From NCBI GenBank assembly GCA_016649715.1, contig JAENXC010000006.1, forward strand, positions 1 through 64,000: 64,000 bases of DNA, read 5' to 3'. Shown here piece by piece: positions 1 to 10,397 of the stretch. Source of the DNA: Flavobacteriaceae bacterium. Its GTDB lineage: Bacteria > Bacteroidota > Bacteroidia > Flavobacteriales > Flavobacteriaceae. Made by a program: the position numbers and the translations under genes. Below the pieces are notes generated by a model. The model was not told where the DNA came from. It saw only the letters and a list, made by a program, of their open reading frames with translations, and did no database searches. Positions within the stretch are counted from its first letter, which is position 1. The number at the start of each line of letters is the position of its first letter.

Positions 1-56
1 ACCGGATTGACCTCAAAGGAGAATCATTAAGAAAAGGAGCTTTAAAGAACGAATAA
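1..56 (+). CDS. istB: IstB-like IS21 transposition helper, C-terminal end (partial)
   Basis: Only the last 17 codons are in the window, read from base 3 to the TAA at 54-56. They spell RIDLKGESLRKGALKNE, which resembles the end of IS21-family IstB ATPases (a conserved ...I.(G/L)ESLR/YR tail). IstB is the AAA+ partner of the IstA transposase. The sequence after the stop looks like an insertion-sequence end, which supports the call. The assignment rests on a very short peptide and on context, so it is tentative. Confidence 0.5.
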   Translation, partial: RIDLKGESLRKGALKNE

Positions 57-140
57 CATTAATTTTTTATATAATTGCAGTATCTTTCAAAGTGGCACTG
101 TTTGACCGAAACAGGTGGCACCATCACTCCGAAATAGCCA
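1..140 (+). mobile_element. Right-hand end of an IS21-like insertion sequence
   Basis: After the istB-like stop codon, bases 94-135 hold two copies of a GTGGCAC motif, each followed by a related block (TGTTTGACCG and CATCACTCCG). Closely spaced short repeats of this kind are typical of IS21 termini. The outer boundary is not certain; the element may stop near 135. The left part lies outside the window. The next gene ends inside this sequence, so its last codons may be supplied by the element. Confidence 0.45.
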
Positions 141-597
141 ATCTTATTGGTCTATTGTCGGCGTTGTAACCTATTGTATAGTAAATGTCTAATAAATTAT
201 CTTTAATTTCAATATTTGGATTTGGCGGATTTAAATCACTAAAAAATTCGAATTGACAACAAATCTTTTCTTTTTTCTCGTTTAAAATTTGAAGTGCTGA
301 AGTTAATGCAAAATCAGGTTGAAGATAAAGGACTTCATCACAAAAACAGGACTGATTACCTAAATATATTTCTGATTTTTCAAGGAATACAGTAGTTTTA
401 GTATTCAACAAGAATATATTTTGACTTTTATCTTCTTGCAATTTGTAATTAATAATTGTTGTTGTTAATTCTGAAATTTCATATTTCTGAAAATACATAA
501 ACCCTATTACTAAAACTGTAATTCCGAGAAAAACACCTACTGTTTTTAGTATACCTCTTAATGAAATATTGAAGCTTATATTTACTTTTTTACTCAT
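124..597 (-). CDS. Hypothetical protein with one N-terminal membrane anchor
   Basis: This 157-residue protein is not recognised. Residues about 14-36 form a hydrophobic segment (LKTVGVFLGITVLVIGFMYF) after a lysine-bearing N-terminus, so it is probably an inner-membrane protein with the rest outside the cytoplasm. A CFCDEV stretch and a later CC pair give several cysteines in the soluble part. The stop codon and the last few residues lie in the putative insertion-sequence end, so the natural C-terminus may have been cut off. It is very AT-rich and is the first of three orphan minus-strand genes separated by palindromic spacers. Confidence 0.55.
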   Translation of the reverse strand: MSKKVNISFNISLRGILKTVGVFLGITVLVIGFMYFQKYEISELTTTIINYKLQEDKSQNIFLLNTKTTVFLEKSEIYLGNQSCFCDEVLYLQPDFALTSALQILNEKKEKICCQFEFFSDLNPPNPNIEIKDNLLDIYYTIGYNADNRPIRLAISE

Positions 598-620
598 TCA
601 TTGTTTTTTTTTAAATTACT

Positions 621-829
621 GGCAACGTTTAATATAAAAGAAGTAGGGCTGTAAATAAGCAATTACCTTTCGGATTATCCACAAGTCAAATCTTTTGCTC
701 CCGAAACTTCGGGATTGTTTTATATTATTTCTCTAAAAGCCAAATTAAAAGATTTGGCGACCTCGTAAATATGCCTGAAACATTGGGTTTAGCACTTACT
801 TGCCCTATTTTTTTTATACATTTGTTGGC
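621..829. repeat. Long imperfect palindrome between orphan genes (cassette-boundary-like)
   Basis: Bases 621-649 (GGCAAC...TAGGGC) and 802-829 (GCCCTA...GTTGGC) are inverted copies that agree at most positions over 28 bases. Inside them CAAATCTTTT at 687-696 pairs with AAAAGATTTG at 747-756, and CCCGAA/TTCGGG at 700-713 forms a small hairpin. No reading frame of note lies here. The layered palindrome fills the gap between two orphan genes, as recombination sites do in gene-cassette arrays. The sequence does not match the canonical integron attC boxes, and no integrase is present in the window. Confidence 0.5.
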
Positions 830-841
830 AACAGTATTTTT

Positions 842-1438
842 TTACCAATTGTCATCTTCTGTCTCCATAAATATTTTTAAAGTACTTTCAAAATCTTCCA
901 TTTGTTTGTCTAAATCTTGAAAAATTTTAAATCTTTTATGATTTTTTCCGATTCTGTATAGATTTTCGAGTGGTTCTTTAGGAATTTCTCTTGGAATTCT
1001 GGTAACAGAACTGCCAATAAAACCGCCATTCCCAATTGCCCCAGCAGAGCCTATTGAATATATATTAATTTTTTTAGGCACTATATAGAAGTTGTAAGCT
1101 TTATATTTCACTTTGTTGTCCTTAAAAGAAAGCTGTAAGTCATAAATAACATCTTTTGTTTTGTTATTGTAGAAAATCAAAAAATGAGATTTATACGCAA
1201 GTTCTTTTTCTCCGATAGTGTACATTTCGTTTTCATCTTTATAAATGATGGGCATTTTGTTTACTTGACAAAACTTTTCGAATTTTTCAATCAATTCAGT
1301 TTTATCCTTTTCGGAGAATTGAATTATATTTTCATAATAGATTAAATTTTCGTTTTTATCATATTGATAAGTAGTCTGAGCATAAATAGATTTTGCAGAA
1401 AGAATAATAAATAGTAGGATAAATGTTGATTTTTTCAT
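842..1438 (-). CDS. Secreted hypothetical protein
   Basis: This 198-residue protein begins MKKSTFILLFIILSAKSIYAQ, a clear Sec signal peptide with probable cleavage after the Ala at position 20. The mature part is polar and rich in Asn, Lys and Tyr. A Gly-rich stretch (SIGSAGAIGNGGFIGSS) lies near residues 128-144. No family was recognised. It should be periplasmic or outer-membrane associated. It stands alone on the minus strand with palindromic spacers on both sides (the TTGGCAACA motif at 824-833 and CTATTGC-tg-GCAATAG near 1490), like its neighbours. Confidence 0.6.
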   Translation of the reverse strand: MKKSTFILLFIILSAKSIYAQTTYQYDKNENLIYYENIIQFSEKDKTELIEKFEKFCQVNKMPIIYKDENEMYTIGEKELAYKSHFLIFYNNKTKDVIYDLQLSFKDNKVKYKAYNFYIVPKKINIYSIGSAGAIGNGGFIGSSVTRIPREIPKEPLENLYRIGKNHKRFKIFQDLDKQMEDFESTLKIFMETEDDNW

Positions 1439-1554
1439 TTTCTTTAAAATTATAAGTGTTTAGGTTATTAAAATTAATTTCGGTTTTCCTATTGCTGGCA
1501 ATAGTGTTTTTCCACTTTGAATAATTTTTTTTGAAATTTGATCCAAATACTGTC

Positions 1555-2016
1555 CTAAAGATTTTCTTTAAGTTTGGGATTATTATAATAGGAATCATCA
1601 AAATTTCCGACCCAATCATTTAACTTTTTATAATGATGGTGAAAAATTTCTATTATACTTTTTTCATCTTTATTCATAAGATTTTCAACATCGTGTATTT
1701 CTTCCCAAACTCCTTGGTTATATAACCCAATAATTTTAAATGCTATCCGACCTTGATTCTTATAAATCATTGCGCTTGTTAAAAAAGGTGTTTGTTGATT
1801 TAAGTCATTAAAAATATCTAGAGATTTTTTAAAAGTAATTCCAGCTGTCGTTTTCATCTGTCCAGTTTTAAAATCTAATCTATCAAATATTACAGGAACA
1901 ATTGGGCCTTTTGATTTTTCTATAAATATTTTTTTAACAGTTACTGGAATTTTAAAAACTTCTTGATTATTAAATTTATCCTTATCCTTTATTGGTGGTA
2001 TTAATCTAAAGTCCAT
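1555..2016 (-). CDS. Hypothetical protein
   Basis: A 153-residue soluble protein of unrecognised family, without signal peptide or membrane segment. It starts MDFRLIPPIKDKDKFN and is rich in Lys, Phe, Ile and Asn, like the other AT-rich orphan genes next to it. The C-terminal third (NLMNKDEKSIIEIFHHHYKK) is likely helical. It is bordered by short palindromic spacers rather than by operon partners. Such singletons in flavobacterial accessory regions often come from phage or immunity functions, but nothing in this sequence decides it. Confidence 0.5.
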   Translation of the reverse strand: MDFRLIPPIKDKDKFNNQEVFKIPVTVKKIFIEKSKGPIVPVIFDRLDFKTGQMKTTAGITFKKSLDIFNDLNQQTPFLTSAMIYKNQGRIAFKIIGLYNQGVWEEIHDVENLMNKDEKSIIEIFHHHYKKLNDWVGNFDDSYYNNPKLKENL

Positions 2017-2090
2017 AATTGTTTTTATTTTAAATATCGTAGTTTAATCTTCAAAAAAACAATTTCACTATGAATTATTCAATTATTTTA

Positions 2091-2114
2091 TATTGTTGCC
2101 AACATGTGGATAAA
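2091..2114. repeat. GTTGCCAAC palindrome, third spacer copy
   Basis: The sequence TTGTTGCCAACATGTGGATAA resembles the outer arm of the 621-829 palindrome (GCCAAC, a short AT-rich gap, then ATAAAA). It marks the end of the run of orphan genes. No matching second arm was found before the GC-rich gene at 2183, so this copy may have been truncated. Confidence 0.35.
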
Positions 2115-2182
2115 AACCATTATAGTGTTTATTCCCATTATATAGTTATATTGTTTACCTTCAAATATAACAAAAAAAACCC

Positions 2183-2533
2183 CTACTTCCGCACCACCGC
2201 CATCAGGGTTTCCACCTTGGCATTCAACAACCTATTCTCCTCCTCCAGCGCGGCAATGCGCTCCTGCAAGGGCAAGGTTGGGTCTGGCGCATCGGTGCTA
2301 AAGCCTGGCGGCAGCTGGGCGGCGAGGTCCATTAAAAAATTGTGCTTTAACGCCAATGATAGCTCCCAAAGAATAGCAACTTGCAGGCTTGGGCGTGAAA
2401 GGTAACGCTGTATCCCGCTTTTGTGCGTATCCATAACACGGGCAAGGGCGGCTTTATAGATTCGTTCGTTCTTAAAATATGTTTTCAGTAGCAGGCCCAC
2501 ATGCGGCATGGGCAATTTTGGAAGTGCTGTCAT
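2183..2533 (-). CDS. Putative small DNA-binding protein with C-terminal coiled coil
   Basis: This 116-residue protein has an N-terminal helical region (residues about 20-75) with helix-turn-helix character: KSGIQRYLSRPSLQVAIL followed by WELSLALKHNFLMDLA, which resembles the LL.IS.AL..NFF.DL segment of small Bacteroidetes XRE-like regulators. Residues about 90-113 (LQERIAALEEENRLLNAKVE) form a leucine-zipper-like coiled coil that would allow dimerisation. The gene is clearly richer in G+C than its AT-rich neighbours, which suggests transfer. Its upstream region carries ten 21-bp repeats, so autoregulation by binding these is a reasonable inference, not shown. No confident family name can be given. 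Confidence 0.55.
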   Translation of the reverse strand: MTALPKLPMPHVGLLLKTYFKNERIYKAALARVMDTHKSGIQRYLSRPSLQVAILWELSLALKHNFLMDLAAQLPPGFSTDAPDPTLPLQERIAALEEENRLLNAKVETLMAVVRK

Positions 2534-2566
2534 AGTCCGTGTTTTTATAAAAGTTGATAAAACAGT

Positions 2567-2771
2567 TAACTAAGTAATTATAAATGCAAACTAAGTAATC
2601 AATAATGATAACTATGTAATTGAAAATGCTGATTGAGTAATTGAAAATGCTGATTAAGTGATTTAAATAGTTTACTAAGTATTATAAATTGATTATTGAG
2701 TAGTATGAAATGCCAACTAAATAATAAAATATATCAACTAAATAAACTTAACTGTTAACTAAGTATGCCAT
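2567..2771. repeat. Ten direct repeats with exact 21-bp period (iteron or operator array)
   Basis: The degenerate core A(C/T)T(A/G)A(G/A)T begins at 2569, 2590, 2611, 2632, 2653, 2674, 2695, 2716, 2737 and 2758, every 21 bases without exception. Best-conserved units read AACTAAGTAATT. Spacers between cores are AT-rich and partly alike (GAAAATGCT recurs). Twenty-one bases are two helical turns, so all cores face the same side of DNA. The array fills the gap upstream of the HTH-like gene and downstream of the next one, and could be an operator array or replication-type iterons. Confidence 0.8.
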
Positions 2772-2800
2772 AAAGCCAACTTTTTTAGGCTGGTACGGGC

Positions 2801-2833
2801 TCAAAAAAACGGGCCCGAGGCCCGTCTTTTTCT
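2801..2833 (-). terminator. Rho-independent terminator of the Pro/Glu-tailed protein gene
   Basis: On the minus strand ACGGGCC and GGCCCGT arms (2809-2825) form a very GC-rich hairpin followed by a run of seven T. It begins right after the stop codon of the gene ending at 2832. The A-run on the other side makes it usable in both directions. Confidence 0.8.
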
Positions 2834-3323
2834 AAGGTTCCGGTTCAGGCTCGCGGCTTCCGCCACCTTGGCTCTGATAGCGTTCCTTCAAGCGGTCATA
2901 GCTGGCCTGTGCCCCGGGCACACCACTGCGCGCCATCATTTCAAACATACCGTACACAGAGGTGCTCATGCCGTAGCCTTCATGTCCCGTTAGGCGAATG
3001 ATGTCGTCCAGCCGCTGCACAATGTTCAGCATACGGCTCCGGATGCTCTGGGCTTGGGTGTTCAGGGTAAGGTCATTGTCCAAAAATTCCTTGTTGTAAA
3101 AGGCTGGGATGGTCACCGTGGTATTGATGTTCATCTCGTCCAGCACATGTTCAGCAAAAACTTTGTTGTCCACGCTAATGGCGTTATAGGTTCGGCGCTG
3201 TTCATCAGTCAGCGTGCTGTCTGGCAGATTGCTCTCCACAGCGGTAAGGCTCTCCATGATACTTGTGATAGTTTCAGGGCTTAGGGCCTGGTTCAGAAGG
3301 TTTTGGTTTACATTACTCATCAT
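2832..3323 (-). CDS. Hypothetical protein with Glu-Pro tail
   Basis: A 163-residue soluble protein (162 if the second of two adjacent ATG codons is used). It is mostly helical, with no signal peptide and no known motif. Two internal stretches, SNLPDSTLTDEQRRTYNAIS and the helix NIVQRLDDIIRLTGHEGY, look well folded; the C-terminus ends in QGGGSREPEPEP, a flexible tail. G+C content is high compared with neighbours, as in the HTH-like gene at 2183, so the two genes were probably acquired together. Function is unknown. A strong terminator follows the stop codon directly. Confidence 0.6.
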   Translation of the reverse strand: MMSNVNQNLLNQALSPETITSIMESLTAVESNLPDSTLTDEQRRTYNAISVDNKVFAEHVLDEMNINTTVTIPAFYNKEFLDNDLTLNTQAQSIRSRMLNIVQRLDDIIRLTGHEGYGMSTSVYGMFEMMARSGVPGAQASYDRLKERYQSQGGGSREPEPEP

Positions 3324-3436
3324 TAAAAGTTTTAAAAATTATTATATCTCTAATTTCGGGAAAAAAAGCAGTACCAGTCAAGAGGAAAAACCCTGTTTTT
3401 TTAGGGGGATTTCCCCCTTTTTTTAAGTGAACTGAT

Positions 3437-3535
3437 TTATTTATAAAAAGCATCCGGTACTTCATCGCTATTTTCGAAGAAGAGGCTTTTATTATTTTTC
3501 TGGGCGCCGCGGCCTTTTAGAATAGTATCAGACAT
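3437..3535 (-). pseudogene. Short remnant resembling the start of a PA0069-type radical SAM protein
   Basis: A 32-codon frame begins MSDTILKGRGAQKN and stops soon after (...DEVPDAFYK). The (I/L)KGRGAQ.N motif is characteristic of the first residues of PA0069-family radical SAM proteins, which normally continue for about 350 residues with a CxxxCxxC cluster. Here nothing follows, so this is either a truncated 5' remnant or an unrelated microprotein with a chance match. A terminator-like hairpin ends directly at its ATG. Confidence 0.35.
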
Positions 3536-3569
3536 AAAAAAACTTTGAAGAATGGGGTTCTTCAAAGTT
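3536..3569 (-). terminator. 12-bp hairpin with T-run abutting a start codon
   Basis: AACTTTGAAGAA and TTCTTCAAAGTT (3541-3569) pair perfectly around a 5-base loop. On the minus strand the hairpin is followed by T residues that lead straight into the ATG at 3535. It has the form of an intrinsic terminator but sits where a leader would be, so it may be the relic of an attenuator or just the terminator of an upstream transcript. Confidence 0.5.
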
Positions 3570-3644
3570 ATTTGTTGTTTGGAATAAACCCTTTTTTGTT
3601 TGAATGTATTCCTATTTATTGATTTTTAATATCGTTGAAATTTT

Positions 3645-3773
3645 TGCCACGAATTGCACGAATATTCACTAACCTGCCTGCCGGCAGGTCCACTCATCTG
3701 TTGAAAATGAATGCGCGAATAATATTGTTTTTATTTTCACGAATGTAACAGACCTGCCTGCCGGCAAGGCAGG
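3645..3773. repeat. Intergenic cluster of CACGAAT repeats and two GC-rich palindromes
   Basis: Between the remnant at 3535 and the peptidase gene, CCACGAATTGCACGAAT (about 3645-3661) and a later TTTTCACGAATG (about 3735-3745) belong to a CACGAAT family seen again near 6467, 37245 and 45186. The palindrome CCTGCCTGCCGGCAGG occurs at 3673-3688, and a form with one extra base at 3753-3773. No gene is visible. Confidence 0.7.
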
Positions 3774-3816
3774 CTTTCAGTCTGTTTTAGGAACCTGAAA
3801 ATTGCAATTTATAGGT

Positions 3817-5637
3817 TTAGTTTGTTGCTTTATGGAAAGCTTCCTTTCCACCGACAATTGGAATTTCAATGGTTGTTTCATCGAGATCAACAGTTAAGAT
3901 AGTTCCAGGTTCTGGCAGAAGCGTAAATTGGCTGTCGCTTGAAAAAATCATCAACCCAATCTGTTGCCCTGCCGGGATTACTTGATCGTCGGGAATTAGA
4001 TTGAAGGACATTTCATAAAACTTGCCCGGTTTTAAAGGTTCACTTTCGGTAATGGATTTATAGTTCTGTGGATCTGCCCAACCCCGCGTGATAATATTGT
4101 CGGTCAGTTTTGCATTCTTGTCTTTGTTCCACGGCAAGGAAACCATCCAAACGGAAAGGTTTGCCGCAGGTTTACTACTGGCCAATTTGATGTGTAATTT
4201 CGAAAGCCCTGAAAGGTGCAAATCTTCTTTTAATAGTGGTGTTAAAAAAAGTAATCTATTTATGGAGGTTGAAAGTTGCGCGAGTGAATCTCCAGAAAAA
4301 TTATAGTCATCTCTCAACATAGCTTGTAATTGTACTGTACCCTTCTTTTTGATAGCCAAAACCCCTTCATTTGGTGAGGTAGAATTTAAATGAAGTGTAA
4401 CATTTTCAGCATCCGGATTTGGGTAATCAGCGTAAGGCGTAGGATTGTCATTTTTATCATTTTCACGGACAATCCATGCTTTTGGGCCTTTTTCAATATC
4501 ATTCTCAATTCCGAAAAGATAATGTGTAAACCACTTATTCATCATAGAAAAAGGTGGTGGCCCGCCGTGACCGTATTGATGGTAATAAATTTTTACGGGC
4601 AATCCCATTTCCTCGGCAGCTTTGTAAATTCTATAACTGTGCTCTGGCATTACGTTCCAATCGTTAAACCCGTGCGACATAAATAGCGCGGCTTTCATCG
4701 GTTTCATATCGTTCAAATAATCACGGCCAGCCCAAAATTCATTGTAATCGCCTGTTTTTCTATCTATTCCATTTTTTATTTCGTTGTCTCGATAAACTTC
4801 ATTGTTATGAGCACGTTTTGACTCATCGCCACTATTGATGAAATCATTAAGCACGTCAACGTCTTCGCCCAAATATCCTCCGGGAGAACGAACTAGTCCA
4901 TTACTTCTGTAATAATGATAATAGGAAGTATTTGGCGCGATGGGGATGATTGCCTCAAGTCCTTCAACACCGGTGGTTGCTGCTGCCAACGGAATTGTAC
5001 CGTTATAGGAAGTGCCCGTCATCCCCACTTTTCCAGTGGTCCAATACGCTTTTACTTCTTCATTTCCGTTGGGAGTTGTGTAGCCTTTTGCACGGCCGTT
5101 TAGCCAATCTATAACGGCTTTTGGCGCCAGTGATTCATTATCACCACCAACGGTTGGAGAACCTTGGGAAAGTCCCGTTCCAGGCGAAGAGGAGTGTATA
5201 ACGATATAGCCACGCGGAACCCAAGTTTTAATTTGTGAATTGGAAATGATGGGTCGTTCGCCTTTTCTTGTAACTGAAGGGTGTACAATTTCTTTTTCGG
5301 GTGCGCCCAATTCGTGATGTACGTCGTGAAAAGCACCTTCAACTTCTGGCGCTACGCCTGCAAAATAGGGGCTGGATTCATAAACCACGGGAAGTTTTAA
5401 TCCGTCTTCGGTTTGTTTGGGTCTGGTAACGTCCACGTGCATTCGGTCTGGGTTACCGTCGCCGTCGGTATCAAAGGTGGTTTCTACCCACAAGTCGGTA
5501 CGTATCCAATCCGTCGGATTTTCAAAAGCGGGGATAATTTGTGCTTCGCCATCTTTGAACCACGATTCGGCTTTATCTTGGGCGATTAACTGAAATGCAA
5601 AAGCTAAAAAGAGAAAAAGTAAAATATGTTTTTTCAT
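3817..5637 (-). CDS. Secreted Xaa-Pro dipeptidyl-peptidase-like hydrolase (S15/CocE family)
   Basis: This 606-residue protein starts with a Sec signal peptide (MKKHILLFLFLAFAFQLIAQ), so it acts in the periplasm or outside the cell. It has the S15/CocE alpha/beta-hydrolase plan: a nucleophile elbow GTSYNG with Ser210, an acid in HGFNDWNV (Asp326) and a histidine in YGHGG (His357), then a C-terminal beta-sandwich of about 200 residues. Members remove Xaa-Pro dipeptides or hydrolyse esters; substrate cannot be fixed from sequence. Residues 57-65 (DTDGDGNPD) look like a calcium-binding loop. It is followed closely by, and may share transcription with, the enoyl-CoA hydratase gene upstream at 5653-6435. 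Confidence 0.88.
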   Translation of the reverse strand: MKKHILLFLFLAFAFQLIAQDKAESWFKDGEAQIIPAFENPTDWIRTDLWVETTFDTDGDGNPDRMHVDVTRPKQTEDGLKLPVVYESSPYFAGVAPEVEGAFHDVHHELGAPEKEIVHPSVTRKGERPIISNSQIKTWVPRGYIVIHSSSPGTGLSQGSPTVGGDNESLAPKAVIDWLNGRAKGYTTPNGNEEVKAYWTTGKVGMTGTSYNGTIPLAAATTGVEGLEAIIPIAPNTSYYHYYRSNGLVRSPGGYLGEDVDVLNDFINSGDESKRAHNNEVYRDNEIKNGIDRKTGDYNEFWAGRDYLNDMKPMKAALFMSHGFNDWNVMPEHSYRIYKAAEEMGLPVKIYYHQYGHGGPPPFSMMNKWFTHYLFGIENDIEKGPKAWIVRENDKNDNPTPYADYPNPDAENVTLHLNSTSPNEGVLAIKKKGTVQLQAMLRDDYNFSGDSLAQLSTSINRLLFLTPLLKEDLHLSGLSKLHIKLASSKPAANLSVWMVSLPWNKDKNAKLTDNIITRGWADPQNYKSITESEPLKPGKFYEMSFNLIPDDQVIPAGQQIGLMIFSSDSQFTLLPEPGTILTVDLDETTIEIPIVGGKEAFHKATN

Positions 5638-5652
5638 AAAATTTTGATTTAA

Positions 5653-6435
5653 TTAATCACCAGGAAATTCAGCTTTTCTCTTTTGAAGAAATGCCTGTGT
5701 GCCTTCTTTAAAATCTTCAGTCCCAAAACAATTGCCAAATTTTTCAATTTCAACTTGAAAACCGTTTTCGCCATCCTCAAAATTTGCATTGATTGCGCGT
5801 ATTGCGGAAGCGATTGCAACGGAAGAATTCCGCATAATTTTTCCAGCAAGCTTTTCTGCGAAGTCCAGCAATTCTTCGGGAGTGGTTACGTGGTTTACCA
5901 AACCGTATTGCAGTGCTTGGTTGGCGTCTATCATTCCGGCGGTCATAATCATTTCCATCGCGCGACCTTTGCCAACGAGTTGTGGTAACCGCTGGGTTCC
6001 TCCATAACCGGGGATTACGCCCAGTGAAACTTCGGGAAGTCCCATTTTTGCGTTATCGGAAGCAATGCGGAAGTGTGCCGCCATTGCCAGTTCAAGTCCA
6101 CCGCCCAAGGCAAAACCATTTACGGCGGCAATTACTGGTTTAGATAAATTTGCTACAAAATCGAACAATAATTCCTGTCCCTTCGCTGCGAGTTTGCTGC
6201 CTTCTTCAATTGAGAAATCTGCAAACTCACTAATGTCTGCGCCAGCGACGAATGCTTTTTCTCCGCTTCCTGTTAGGATTATGACCTTCGTTTTGGGTGA
6301 ATTTTCTGCTATTTCAAAAGCATCGTGCAACTCCTGGATTGTTTCGCGGTTCAATGCGTTTAATTTTGAAGGGCGGTTGATAGTTATAGTTGTAATTCCA
6401 TTATCGGTTTCGGAGAGTATATTTTGAAATTTCAT
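5653..6435 (-). CDS. Enoyl-CoA hydratase (crotonase family)
   Basis: This 260-residue protein hydrates 2-enoyl-CoA to 3-hydroxyacyl-CoA in fatty-acid or butanoate metabolism in the cytoplasm. The CoA/oxyanion-hole segment AGADISEF and the GGGLELA segment are intact, with the first catalytic Glu in GGGLELA and the second in LPEVSLGVIPGYGGTQRL, so it should be a hydratase and not merely an isomerase. Length is normal for the family. The ATG at 6435 was chosen; a TTG three codons earlier is less likely. It lies 15 bp upstream of the S15 peptidase on the same strand. Chain-length preference is unknown. Confidence 0.9.
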   Translation of the reverse strand: MKFQNILSETDNGITTITINRPSKLNALNRETIQELHDAFEIAENSPKTKVIILTGSGEKAFVAGADISEFADFSIEEGSKLAAKGQELLFDFVANLSKPVIAAVNGFALGGGLELAMAAHFRIASDNAKMGLPEVSLGVIPGYGGTQRLPQLVGKGRAMEMIMTAGMIDANQALQYGLVNHVTTPEELLDFAEKLAGKIMRNSSVAIASAIRAINANFEDGENGFQVEIEKFGNCFGTEDFKEGTQAFLQKRKAEFPGD

Positions 6436-6466
6436 GTTTAACAATGTTTTTGTTTAAGGGTTATTT

Positions 6467-6516
6467 GACCACGAATACACGAATAATTATGTAAAAAAAA
6501 TCGTGTATTCGTGGTC
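6467..6516. repeat. Perfect 16-bp inverted repeat of the CCACGAAT family
   Basis: GACCACGAATACACGA at 6467-6482 is repeated inverted at 6501-6516, with an AT-rich loop. It lies between the histidine kinase stop and the hydratase start, where its RNA would fold into a long hairpin. It belongs to the dispersed CACGAAT family and lacks a proper T-run for a terminator. Confidence 0.75.
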
Positions 6517-6540
6517 GTTTTCACAAAGCTACTAAAAACC

Positions 6541-8019
6541 TTAAAGCATTGCGGGAAACGAAACTTTAAAAGTAGTTTTTTCCTGCCTGCCGGCAGGCGC
6601 GGCTTCGGAAGAAGTAAGTGTTATTGTTCCGCCGTAGGTTTCAACTATGTTTTTCACCATTCCCAAACCTAGACCCATCCCGCTAGATTTGGTGGTGAAT
6701 TGTGGCTCAAAAATGCTGCTTCGGTTTTCTTCGGGAACACCTATGCCGTTGTCGGTGACCGTAATGGTAACGAAGTTTTCTTCCGCTTTTACCTCAACAT
6801 CAATTCTCGGATTTTCGGGCTCTTTTTGCTCCACGGATTGAATGCTGTTTTTGACCAAATTTGTAACCACTCGAATCAGTTGAGTCCGGTCAAAACGCGC
6901 TCGGACTTCATCTTCCTCAGAAAAGAAATAGATATAATCTTCGGTAAAGATATCGAGAGCCAGTTTGGTGATTTTTACCACGTTCAGAGTCTCATCTTGT
7001 TGGGCGGGCATTTTTGCATAGGTTGAAAAGGCCGATGAAATAGAGCTCAACGTATCAATCTGCTGAAGCAATGTATTGGTATATTCCGTCATTTTTTTGT
7101 CAATATCCGGATCGTTGCTGTCAAATTTTCTTTGGAAACTTTGCACGGTAAGCTTCATGGGCGTTAATGGATTTTTAATTTCGTGCGCCACTTGTTTCGC
7201 CATTTCGCGCCAAGCGGTTTCGCGTTCGCTGGCGGCAAGCTGGGCGGCACTGTTTTCCAGTTCGTCTATCATGCCGTTGTAGGCGTTTACGATGGTTGAA
7301 ATCTCAGTGGGCGTATCGCTGAGGTGGATTTTTTTGTTGCGCATATCGAAACGGGTTTCAGTAAGTTTTTCACTTATTTCCATCAAAGAACGCGTAATGT
7401 ATTTTGATAGAAAATAGGAAATTGCGATTGCTGCTATCAACATCGAAAAGTACGCTATGCCCAATCTGTAAAGATATTCGGTAAGTTCTTTTGTGATAAA
7501 CCCGTCGTCTTCAATATAGGGTAAATTCAGGATTGCCAAAGGTTTGAAGTAGCTATCGGTAATATAGGTATAAGAGGACTGGTATTTTTGTCCGCCTTCC
7601 TCAAATTCCTTTATATAGCTTTTTGTGGATGAATTTTGAAGCGCTTCCAAGGCATATTTCGGTATTTTTGGGAAAACGGTATCTTTAAAAAAAGAAGGTT
7701 TTGATGATTTTAAAAAGTTTCCGTCCAGATCGTACAGAAAAATCTCAAGACTGTGAATATCTTTTATTTCGTATATTTTATCTTTAAAAATGAGCGGAAT
7801 CTGGTCGGTTTCAACAGGATAAGTGGTGGTTTTTAGAACGTAATTTATGTTTTCGCGGATGGCGGCCTCCTTTCTTAACAAACGGTCGCGGTGATAATCC
7901 TGTGCCTCTTCTTTATATTGAAAAACGGTAACGATGGCAATGAGTACCGAAGCTCCCAAAACCAAAAGGATCATAGAAAGAAAAATGCGGGTGCGGAGCG
8001 ATTTTTTGTAAAAGTACAT
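6541..8019 (-). CDS. Membrane sensor histidine kinase, NtrY-like
   Basis: This 492-residue kinase has two membrane segments (about 11-33 and 187-205) flanking an extracytoplasmic sensor of about 150 residues, then a HAMP linker, a dimerisation/phosphoacceptor helix with His279 ([15 protein letters not shown]) and an ATPase domain with N box ([10 protein letters not shown]), G1 (DNGIGVP), F box (FEPQFTTK) and G2 ([10 protein letters not shown]). The H box with ..HEIKNPLTP.. is typical of NtrY-like kinases. No response regulator gene is next to it, so its partner is elsewhere. Residues about 474-481 (APAGRQEK) just before the last strands come from an in-frame copy of the GC-rich palindrome. 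Confidence 0.9.
6576..6606. repeat. GC-rich palindrome inside the histidine kinase gene
   Basis: Core CCTGCCTGCCGGCAGG at 6582-6597 with flanks TTTTT and GCGGCTTC. Read on the coding strand it gives A-A-P-A-G-R-Q-E-K. It is in frame and sits in a loop region near the C-terminus of the ATPase domain. Confidence 0.85.
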
Positions 8020-9008: not shown

Positions 9009-9294
9009 GTTTTTTTCGCATTTCAGCTTCGAAAACAGCCCAAGGTATTCCAGTAATTTCTCCCCGCTCCAGTTTTTCACTTTGTTCTTTAAGCAAATCC
9101 CAATGCTCCTGTGGTACAGGAGATTTGTACTGGGTTTCATATCCTGTTTCCGCCTCGTTTACTTTAGCGTATTTGTGTGAAGAAGGTGGTGGCCCAATCA
9201 ACAGCAACAATGCTTCCAGTAACAAATCGTTGTTTTGGCAATTTTCAATCTCTGAAATGAGTGCTTTTTTGAGGTCTTCATTTTTCATAGCCAT
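8998..9294 (-). CDS. Antitoxin partner of the ParE/RelE-type toxin
   Basis: A 98-residue acidic-to-neutral protein just upstream of the toxin and overlapping its start by 11 bases. The N-terminal part is helical (MAMKNEDLKKALISEIENC..LLEALLLL) and the C-terminal part (ERGEITGIPWAVFEAEMRKK) looks like the toxin-wrapping tail of addiction-module antitoxins, with E(R/K)G.(I/G)..W..F. An AGGAT sequence precedes the ATG at 9294; a second ATG two codons later is also possible. It should neutralise the toxin and repress the operon. Confidence 0.72.
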   Translation of the reverse strand: MAMKNEDLKKALISEIENCQNNDLLLEALLLLIGPPPSSHKYAKVNEAETGYETQYKSPVPQEHWDLLKEQSEKLERGEITGIPWAVFEAEMRKKHDL

Positions 9295-9317
9295 ATCCTT
9301 TTCATATTACAAAATAA

Positions 9318-10397
9318 CTATTTTTTGATGAATTTCTTCGTTATTTTCCCTTCGGAAGAGGTAACGGTTATAAAATACATTCCAGATTTTAAGGCTGAAA
9401 CCTCTATTTCGTTAGATGCTAACTTTTCTGTTGAATATACGATTCTACCATTTACATCAGCAATGGAAACGGAATCGAAATCATTGGCAGTGGATTGAAG
9501 AATCAGTTTGTCTTGGGCGGGATTTGGGAAAATAACCAAATTAGACAAACTATGTTCGTTAACTGACAATAATTGATTTGAGAAATAGGAAATAAAACCA
9601 GCGGCGGTTTCATACTGAAAATAGTCTATTCCGTCGTTTCCTGTATATAAATTACAGCCCAGCGGATAGCTGTACATCAGGTCATACAATGCATAACCAA
9701 CGGGTCCGGGCGAGCAATTGCTTTCATCTTGTTGATAGTTTTGTGATTGCAACTTAAAATCATAATCCTCCCCATTTCCCAAAATAAAATCGCCACTTAT
9801 TAAAGCACAGCCTTCAATCCCCGTATATGTAAAATCCGGGGTTATGGTAAATTGTGGAGGATTGGGTCCTGGATAAAAAACCGGATCGCCAAGATCTACT
9901 TCAGTCATATATAGATACCAAGTTTGGAACAACCTTGCATCTGGCACTGGAGCTGGTTCTGTGCTAAAATATGCCCAATTATAGTCGGAATCTCTTAGCG
10001 ATAGGTATTTGTAACCGTTTCTTTCATTGTAATAATACGTGAAGGTTTTAGATTCGAGGTTATGGGTGGTTAAAATTTCATAGAAATAAAGGTCTTCGTA
10101 ATAACAATTTGGCTCCACACAATCGTTTAGCGTGACGCCGTAAGAATGAAGCGTTAATGAATTACCATTAAAATTTGCTCCGGCATTCAACACATTAAAA
10201 ATACCTTCAGCTTCTAAAACATAACTGTTTGGAAGATCATAAAAGGCCACAGTTGGGGTTTCTCCATTTGGGGTAAAAAAAAGATCATTTGTTTCAATAA
10301 ATTTTAAATTGAAAGTCTCGCTCAGCAATCCAACAGGCTGAGCAAAAGCAGTTAGGATTGAAAAAACAGTGCCGAAAAGAAGTATAAGTTTTTTCAT
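9318..10397 (-). CDS. Secreted protein with type IX secretion sorting domain
   Basis: This 359-residue protein has a signal peptide (MKKLILLFGTVFSILTAFAQ) and a C-terminal type A T9SS sorting domain of about 75 residues (IFPNPAQDKLIL ... GMYFITVTS ... KKFIKK). Such proteins cross the outer membrane by the type IX system and are released or anchored on the surface. The 260-residue central region, rich in Tyr, Asn and Phe, matches no domain I recognise; it resembles many flavobacterial extracellular proteins of unknown function. It is a single gene with short flanking gaps. Confidence 0.85.
   Translation of the reverse strand: MKKLILLFGTVFSILTAFAQPVGLLSETFNLKFIETNDLFFTPNGETPTVAFYDLPNSYVLEAEGIFNVLNAGANFNGNSLTLHSYGVTLNDCVEPNCYYEDLYFYEILTTHNLESKTFTYYYNERNGYKYLSLRDSDYNWAYFSTEPAPVPDARLFQTWYLYMTEVDLGDPVFYPGPNPPQFTITPDFTYTGIEGCALISGDFILGNGEDYDFKLQSQNYQQDESNCSPGPVGYALYDLMYSYPLGCNLYTGNDGIDYFQYETAAGFISYFSNQLLSVNEHSLSNLVIFPNPAQDKLILQSTANDFDSVSIADVNGRIVYSTEKLASNEIEVSALKSGMYFITVTSSEGKITKKFIKK

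Follow-up and report, generated by a model that had tools for sequence, protein, structure and literature searches.

In the immunity regions of lambdoid phages, a repressor is matched to its operators, and several such specificities exist in related elements. Sets of about ten phased repeats beside the gene for a DNA-binding protein are also found in plasmid iterons and parC-type centromeres, and an integron platform consists of the integrase gene intI, the promoter Pc, the recombination site attI and the gene cassettes. For direct repeats, a further comparison is provided by BldC of Streptomyces, outlined in PMC5859096 as a small, MerR-like HTH protein that forms cooperative head-to-tail multimers on DNA direct repeats and controls a regulon.

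The locus described here lies at the start of contig JAENXC010000006.1 from a marine Flavobacteriaceae bacterium, of which we analysed one stretch of 64,000 nucleotides, referred to as the window; its features are collected in Table 1. (G, C and L numbers are our handles for genomes, contigs and loci; G000 is the genome of the window.) A first-pass annotation of the sequence had pointed to ten repeats phased at 21 bp without drift, and this was borne out: a repeat search with a 51-nt reference found ten copies in register at 2547-2786, with a start-to-start spacing of 21 in 9/9 cases (the cores start at 2569, 2590 and so on to 2758), TRF called a period of 21 at 2567-2689 and at 2664-2711, and the 21-bp autocorrelation of 2540-2780 was 0.645 versus 0.335 +/- 0.031 in 2000 dinucleotide shuffles (10 sd), none of which (0/2000) matched 0.645 at any period from 5 to 59. 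The core A(C/T)T(A/G)A(G/A)T, said to recur ten times, fits nine of the ten; the third, at 2611, reads ACTATGT. With at most one mismatch, the pattern ACTWAGT-N14-ACTWAGT occurs in its own genome only in the window array; with two mismatches it is also scattered elsewhere, giving 31 forward matches in total versus 76 for a control pattern. The flanking genes are indeed GC-richer, as had been noted (52.4% for the HTH gene and 52.2% for the 163-aa gene on the other side, here called geneA, versus 38.6% for the window), and the array itself has 21.5% GC. A search of 1-8000 against Rfam gave no match.

Table 1. Features of the array locus, in window coordinates.
Feature	Position	Strand	Evidence
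Cassette-like orphan gene 3, 157 aa	124..597	-	
attC-like site between orphan genes 2 and 3, long imperfect hairpin	600..845	-	copies elsewhere
Cassette-like orphan gene 2, 198 aa	842..1438	-	
Cassette-like orphan gene 1, 153 aa	1555..2016	-	
attI-like site for recombination; its sequence ends ..CACATG^TTGGCAACAAT (inferred crossover point)	2098..2170	-	homology to intI-flank site
Promoter-like box TATATTTG, just past the HTH stop codon; possible cassette promoter	2162..2169	-	motif
HTH gene (116 aa) with an XRE / lambda-repressor-like domain for DNA binding, residues about 10-72, and a long C-terminal helix, 87-115	2183..2533	-	AlphaFold2, Foldseek
Phased array, ten exact 21-bp units, core ACTWAGT (palindromic by eye)	2567..2778	.	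repeat search, TRF, autocorrelation
Terminator-like hairpin between geneA and array	2803..2831	.	inverted repeat; terminator scan, + strand only; - strand, seven T after hairpin (direct reading)
geneA, all-alpha orphan gene (163 aa) immediately upstream of array; member of an unnamed family in Bacteroidota	2832..3323	-	ORF, predicted fold
Leader block GGGGGAAATCCCCC...TTTTTCCTCTTGAC upstream of geneA, roughly 50 bp	3377..3425	-	sequence copies

The HTH protein gave nothing above the Pfam cut-off and no NCBIfam or PHROG match. Its AlphaFold2 model (mean pLDDT 88) is predicted to have the five-helix HTH fold of the XRE / lambda-repressor-like proteins, and Foldseek paired it with HipB, ClgR, HigA and lambda repressor (probability about 0.9-1, E 0.02-0.25) and also with C.Esp1396I. 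Homologues are present in 19 of 99 related genomes (18/28 of the same genus, 1/71 of the others), often several per genome; the window's own genome has seven matches, four full and three partial. The homologues belong to Aequorivita, and also to Halomarinibacterium, one Chryseobacterium MAG and one Bacteroidetes MAG.

On the question whether the array travels with the HTH-like protein, nearly all intact homologues in Aequorivita and Halomarinibacterium have a 21-22 bp array of their own, with a different repeat sequence; the opposite outcome, homologous loci lacking the array, did not occur. Among 34 rows for the HTH gene in related genomes (L017 and L029 being two frames of one gene, and L018 coming from another genus), 28 show a periodicity over the upstream 330 bp that was matched by 0/200 shuffles, with periods of 21-22, 42-44 or, once, 11 bp. 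The signal of L003 was reached by 1/200 shuffles and that of L016 by 6/200, and the rows without a signal (L014, L019, L023 and L041) are all broken or truncated genes. Strong homologues outside the genus also have arrays (0/100 shuffles for L068, L069, L071, L072, L073, L074, L076 and L077), with a weak signal at L095 (6/100) and none at L075; of the weak homologues among the rows listed, L080 has a period of 16 (0/100) and L093 a period of 21 (1/100). The fitted periods at HTH loci are 21 and in some cases 22, as in the L096 array (22 bp, 10 copies), with about ten copies in the clear cases. The unit sequences differ from locus to locus, including among five Halomarinibacterium copies and among four own-genome copies, with weak fits for L057, L058 and L060. 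Of 46 rows, 18 (with a few duplicates among them) have dyad-symmetric units (p<0.05).

At one chromosomal site, between an AsmA-like gene and a GAPDH gene, the array and the DNA-binding half of the HTH gene have been swapped as a block between conserved flanks. When G016 is compared with G017, nucleotide identity is 92-98% over most of geneA, dropping to 69-75% at the two ends of the gene, and 82-88% over the C-terminal half of the HTH gene, versus 30-52% for the array plus DNA-binding half, and G000 has a third version of these latter segments at the same site. The result is a mosaic in which, as for a phage-type repressor and its operators, the putative regulator and its putative sites were exchanged together. 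Among the 12 loci examined of 27 matching genomes, geneA lies after the AsmA-like gene and before the GAPDH gene in G016, G010, G003, G000 and G017; it is followed by the array and HTH gene in G016, G000 and G017, and by the contig end in G010 and G003. In G013 and G011 the GAPDH gene comes immediately after AsmA, and in G012, G024, G022 and G027 a different gene comes next after AsmA, with a platform (L010) just behind that gene in G022. The idea that the window segment was imported is supported in part, by the presence or absence of this sister copy among relatives and by the integron-like platform described below.

On sequence comparison, arrays in Aequorivita and Halomarinibacterium covary with the DNA-binding half of their HTH proteins. 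In Mantel tests against array distance over 42 loci, r was 0.139 for the DNA-binding domain (p 0.0005), 0.102 for the recognition region (p 0.0035) and 0.088 for the C-terminal half (p 0.025). This relation is carried by close pairs, which share their arrays: for the seven pairs at a recognition-region distance of <=0.14, the array distance runs from 0.01 to 0.21, with orthologues or duplicates among the close pairs. Beyond a distance of about 0.5 the arrays are unrelated (mean array distance 0.60-0.66 for pairs at >0.5). The predicted recognition helix is also the most variable helix, with a mean entropy of 2.24 bits versus 0.50-1.84 (26 loci). These observations, with the block exchange and the presence of arrays at homologues, lend indirect support to the proposal of the first-pass annotation that a protein array on one DNA face is tied to the HTH gene.

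Our preferred reading, to which we assign a probability of roughly 0.55, is that the array is a cooperative operator array for the linked HTH protein, and that the two form a matched module on an integron platform. Each 21-bp unit would be one site for the HTH protein, which is probably a dimer held together through its long C-terminal helix. Since the units recur every two helix turns, the bound dimers would be lined up on one face of the DNA, covering the roughly 210 bp of the HTH gene's 5' region, so that autoregulation by the HTH protein is the likeliest outcome. Operator and DNA-binding domain would evolve and recombine as one matched module, and most copies within one genome should therefore not read each other's arrays; the block exchange itself points to selection for specificities that do not cross-read. 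Such exclusion between copies would not be strict, because G017 has two copies of the same specificity (L009 and L022). The integrase would act in trans on the attI of the platform; if this is true, one chromosomal integron integrase could work on several satellite capture sites, each under a separate regulator.

Some observations at the HTH loci argue against the HTH protein as the reader. The window unit is not significantly dyad-symmetric (p 0.48), and arrays are kept beside damaged HTH genes, namely L028, in which the DNA-binding half is missing, and the frame-shifted L017/L029; nor did we locate a promoter for the HTH gene. Two pairs of loci have similar DNA-binding domains and rather different arrays (L007/L021, array distance 0.54, and L020/L021, 0.49); L021, the member common to both pairs, has an array fitted on just four copies.

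A further argument against an HTH reader comes from the geneA family, which occurs in 31 of 395 Bacteroidota genomes. A significant array (period 20-23 or 41-45, at most 420 bp behind the gene) was found at 28 of 43 geneA-family loci. Behind most of these arrays an HTH gene is absent, and this HTH protein is thus not required for the layout: HTH-less loci have an array in 25 of 40 cases (17/26 genomes) versus 6/83 for control gene ends (Fisher p 1e-10; geneA rows were compared with 100 shuffles and control rows with 40, and some control windows may touch arrays). Not counted among the 43 are L157 and L178 (flanks too short; both with a signal in a separate test), L175 and L179 (the same places as L203 and L200), L172 (the window), and L181 and L182 (broken genes, no signal in a separate test). 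At L191 and L197 there is no signal behind the geneA-family gene and a strong periodicity in front of it. The repeats differ at most HTH-less loci, the close relatives G063 and G400 sharing theirs, and units of 22 bp and of alternating 21/22 bp occur. Within G063, G181 and G373, the fitted units of the HTH arrays and of the geneA arrays are not alike by eye.

The frequency of HTH-less arrays is one ground for a different explanation, in which the arrays serve as general anchor sites with a chromosome-organising, centromere-like or insulating role and are read by proteins encoded elsewhere, an HTH gene having been captured behind the array in the Aequorivita branch. Besides the frequency of HTH-less arrays behind geneA, it would account for the dyad symmetry of the units in 19/25 of them and for a second 21-bp array with the same motif in G261, 1.48 Mb away, with no geneA or HTH homologue in the 7 kb around it. 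(This second array, L222 3312-3513, lies between convergent genes; the gene beside it is presumably a group III truncated haemoglobin-like gene, and a similar haemoglobin-like gene is convergent to the array in L151/L161 of G181.) Two other orphan families also have adjoining arrays: two unrelated own-genome orphan genes, of 243 and 247 aa, are each followed by a 21-bp array of their own (L131 335-536 on C48 and L128 3412-3613 on C61). Over nine loci of these two families (9 of 12 places, the two originals included), a significant array was found behind the gene at three and none at two, and the remaining four have a strong periodicity on the other side (no shuffle test) or a short flank (L225). 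In 1.40 Mb of DNA chosen around geneA and HTH genes, with some places counted more than once, 110 of 118 array matches lie at most 700 bp from geneA or HTH homologues; the other eight are five 7-bp microsatellites (by eye), the one G261 array and the two behind the own-genome orphan genes. What speaks against general anchor sites is that in Aequorivita and Halomarinibacterium the array changes along with the linked DNA-binding domain and was swapped together with it, that the motif forms only one array in the window's own genome, and that no partition NTPase is seen beside the window array (ORFs, Pfam). On balance we consider this explanation rather unlikely.

A broader and tentative scheme, possible though less likely than not, is a phylum-wide class of elements made up of an orphan helical gene (from the geneA family or from at least two unrelated orphan families with genes of 243 and 247 aa), often a terminator, and about ten mostly palindromic sites of private sequence in strict two-turn phase. 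Each array would have a dedicated reader, either linked, as with the HTH protein of Aequorivita, or unlinked, and would form nucleoprotein filaments acting as addressable chromosomal anchors or silencers. The constant part of such a class would be its geometry, the sequence being private to the locus or genome. The occurrence of geneA-type arrays across the phylum in any case raises the question of their reader, and the data suggest that the 21-bp array layout with its matched protein is a widespread and apparently undescribed kind of DNA-protein pair; among open-licence papers, at the level of titles, we found none describing such arrays, either for integrons in Bacteroidota or Aequorivita or for 21-bp arrays with HTH proteins.

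The geneA protein might itself read or organise the array, with the HTH protein secondary. The geneA-terminator-array layout occurs across the phylum, and over the 26 loci with both genes, the geneA distance is the better predictor of the array in rank tests (r 0.322; partial 0.30, p 0.002, versus r 0.144; partial 0.10, p 0.036 for the DNA-binding domain), which also counts against the HTH protein as reader. However, four pairs, two of which give nearly the same contrast, have similar geneA genes (distance 0.12-0.19) and unrelated arrays, and the DNA-binding domains differ in all of them; these exchange events favour the HTH protein. In addition, geneA and array distances are not significantly correlated in the 25 HTH-less loci (r 0.06, p 0.17), G005 keeps an array and HTH gene without geneA at the AsmA-GAPDH site, and the predicted fold of geneA, a helix bundle, found no PDB match in a structure search. 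We think it improbable that geneA is the reader. Of the seven non-own genomes with strong HTH homologues, six also carry geneA (hypergeometric p 8e-7). The geneA protein has no Pfam match above the cut-off and no NCBIfam or PHROG match, and four relatives likewise have no Pfam match. The leader block in front of geneA is dispersed in Aequorivita (G000:C4:299, C61:112027, C65:77202 and C48:211591), being found upstream of geneA, upstream of members of two other orphan families and also elsewhere; a link of geneA to transposition through this block was dropped because the block is dispersed at other places too.

Judged by homology, the segment is an integron platform without its own integrase, which runs from geneA through the terminator, the array and the HTH gene to the promoter-like box with attI and on to the cassette genes. 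The attI-like site of the window is 79% identical over 62 nt to a site behind an IntI-like gene in G006 (E 3e-9, small subject set); similarly, the own-genome intI site matches the HTH copy on own-genome contig C60 at 87.5% over 64 nt (E 9e-17), and the G017 intI site matches L019 at 90% over 71 nt. Of the 15 intI flanks, 11 resemble one or more of the 10 HTH sites; the E-values apply to this small set. Many HTH genes are followed by a segment ending ..CATG^TT, beyond which the loci diverge into unrelated genes. The box just past the HTH stop codon, which we take to be a Bacteroidetes-type -7 box, recurs: as a motif, TANNTTTG is found near the HTH stop in 26/40 Aequorivita/Halomarinibacterium rows versus a mean of 3.05 and a maximum of 8/40 in shuffles. 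One attC-like site stands behind a cassette gene of the window (600-845); it has copies behind a different gene each time in L039 (87%/230 nt), L035 (84%/240 nt) and L022 = L054 (90%/84 nt), and its folding energies are -57 and -60 kcal/mol (without a shuffle control). In L035 (G001), an identical 207-aa cassette gene is present twice in one cassette array (4107-4730 and 9224-9847).

No integrase was found among the ORFs in the 2.2 kb from the HTH gene to the contig start, and with the attI-like site this makes the window copy an attI-bearing platform without an integrase of its own. Using the G001 integrase as query, we found intI beside an HTH gene only in G001 (L035 = L008) and G013 (L044 = L005) among the loci examined, many of which have 1.5-kb flanks. 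An IntI-like gene is present on another contig of the window's own genome (G000:C48), and integrase-like genes, ordinary Xer-type recombinases included, are present in 94 of 99 genomes (E 1e-15 or better). The presence of intI genes in the Bacteroidetes/Chlorobi group was noted in 2008, in a passage of PMC2426708. The chromosomal integrase genes of L100 (10929-12065) and L101 (9527-10663) are oriented towards their cassettes; attI lies past the 3' end of intI, and in front of the integrase gene there is, by eye, a reversed small zinc-ribbon-like gene. Of the insertion ends of the window copy, we found only a remnant of the neighbouring gene, the other end lying beyond the contig. The remnant (3440-3533, minus strand) comprises about 30 codons of what we take to be a radical-SAM-like gene; in a relative (L122) this gene is intact (361 aa) beside a CocE-like gene, and the platform sits where its remainder is missing. 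Window 1-125 and the beginning of own-genome contig C4 share 92% identity, so a repeat may break the assembly there.

The closeness of the HTH gene to the attI-like site, which it abuts, allows the array to be seen differently, with the HTH-array complex as a recombination accessory (a directionality factor or topological filter) for the integrase. There is a precedent in RdfS, a winged-HTH directionality factor that, according to PMC11963761, is oligomeric and binds its own promoter as well. Nevertheless, the array lies about 460 bp from the putative crossover point, with a gene in between; the longer intI loci L100, L101 and L103 have no array match, and their ORFs include no HTH gene of this family; and L071, L072 and L077, from another family of the order, have arrays and no attI-like site within 250 bp behind. 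We regard an accessory role as very unlikely. It is more unlikely still that the array is not a protein array at all and reflects a coding heptad repeat (21 bp, a multiple of 3, is 7 codons, and the L008 and L028 arrays are open in the HTH-gene frame), an RNA element or neutral tandem duplication, since the HTH-gene frame at the window array closes 12 codons upstream, 22-bp and alternating 21/22-bp units exist, the two arrays folded show no excess RNA structure (z -0.72 and -0.50), the units differ by substitutions yet keep their spacing, and arrays are far commoner behind geneA-family genes than behind control genes.

If the preferred reading of a matched operator array and HTH protein is correct, these loci amount to a large natural collection of operators, each paired with its DNA-binding domain and all of one geometry, and thus a ready test set for reading protein-DNA recognition from sequence. 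Compared with known systems, the locus resembles plasmid iterons and parC-type centromeres in that some ten phased repeats adjoin a gene encoding a DNA-binding protein, but its motif is private to each copy, and neither a replication initiator nor a partner partition NTPase lies beside the array (ORFs, and Pfam searches of five proteins), although an NTPase could act in trans. A plasmid or iteron origin, which the first-pass annotation had entertained, also gains no support from 72,556 plasmid records, which contain no match to the HTH gene, to geneA or to the geneA relative L142. With BldC, as far as PMC5859096 outlines it, the likeness is a small HTH protein on direct repeats, and the difference is an XRE-like fold, often dyad-symmetric units and a motif private to its gene. 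The locus shares with integrons an attI-like site homologous to that of a chromosomal intI, a promoter-like box, attC-like sites and orphan cassette genes, whereas most copies examined have no intI beside them, carry an HTH gene and operator array instead, and occur as several platforms per genome. The lambdoid immunity module differs in having few operators rather than ten contiguous two-turn sites, and in being carried by phage rather than on a chromosomal integron-like platform, where we saw no divergent second repressor and where the HTH alignment found no match among viral contigs (IMG/VR) and none in PHROG; what the two have in common is a lambda-repressor-like fold, here predicted, and a matched putative regulator and operator set that is swapped as a block between conserved flanks.
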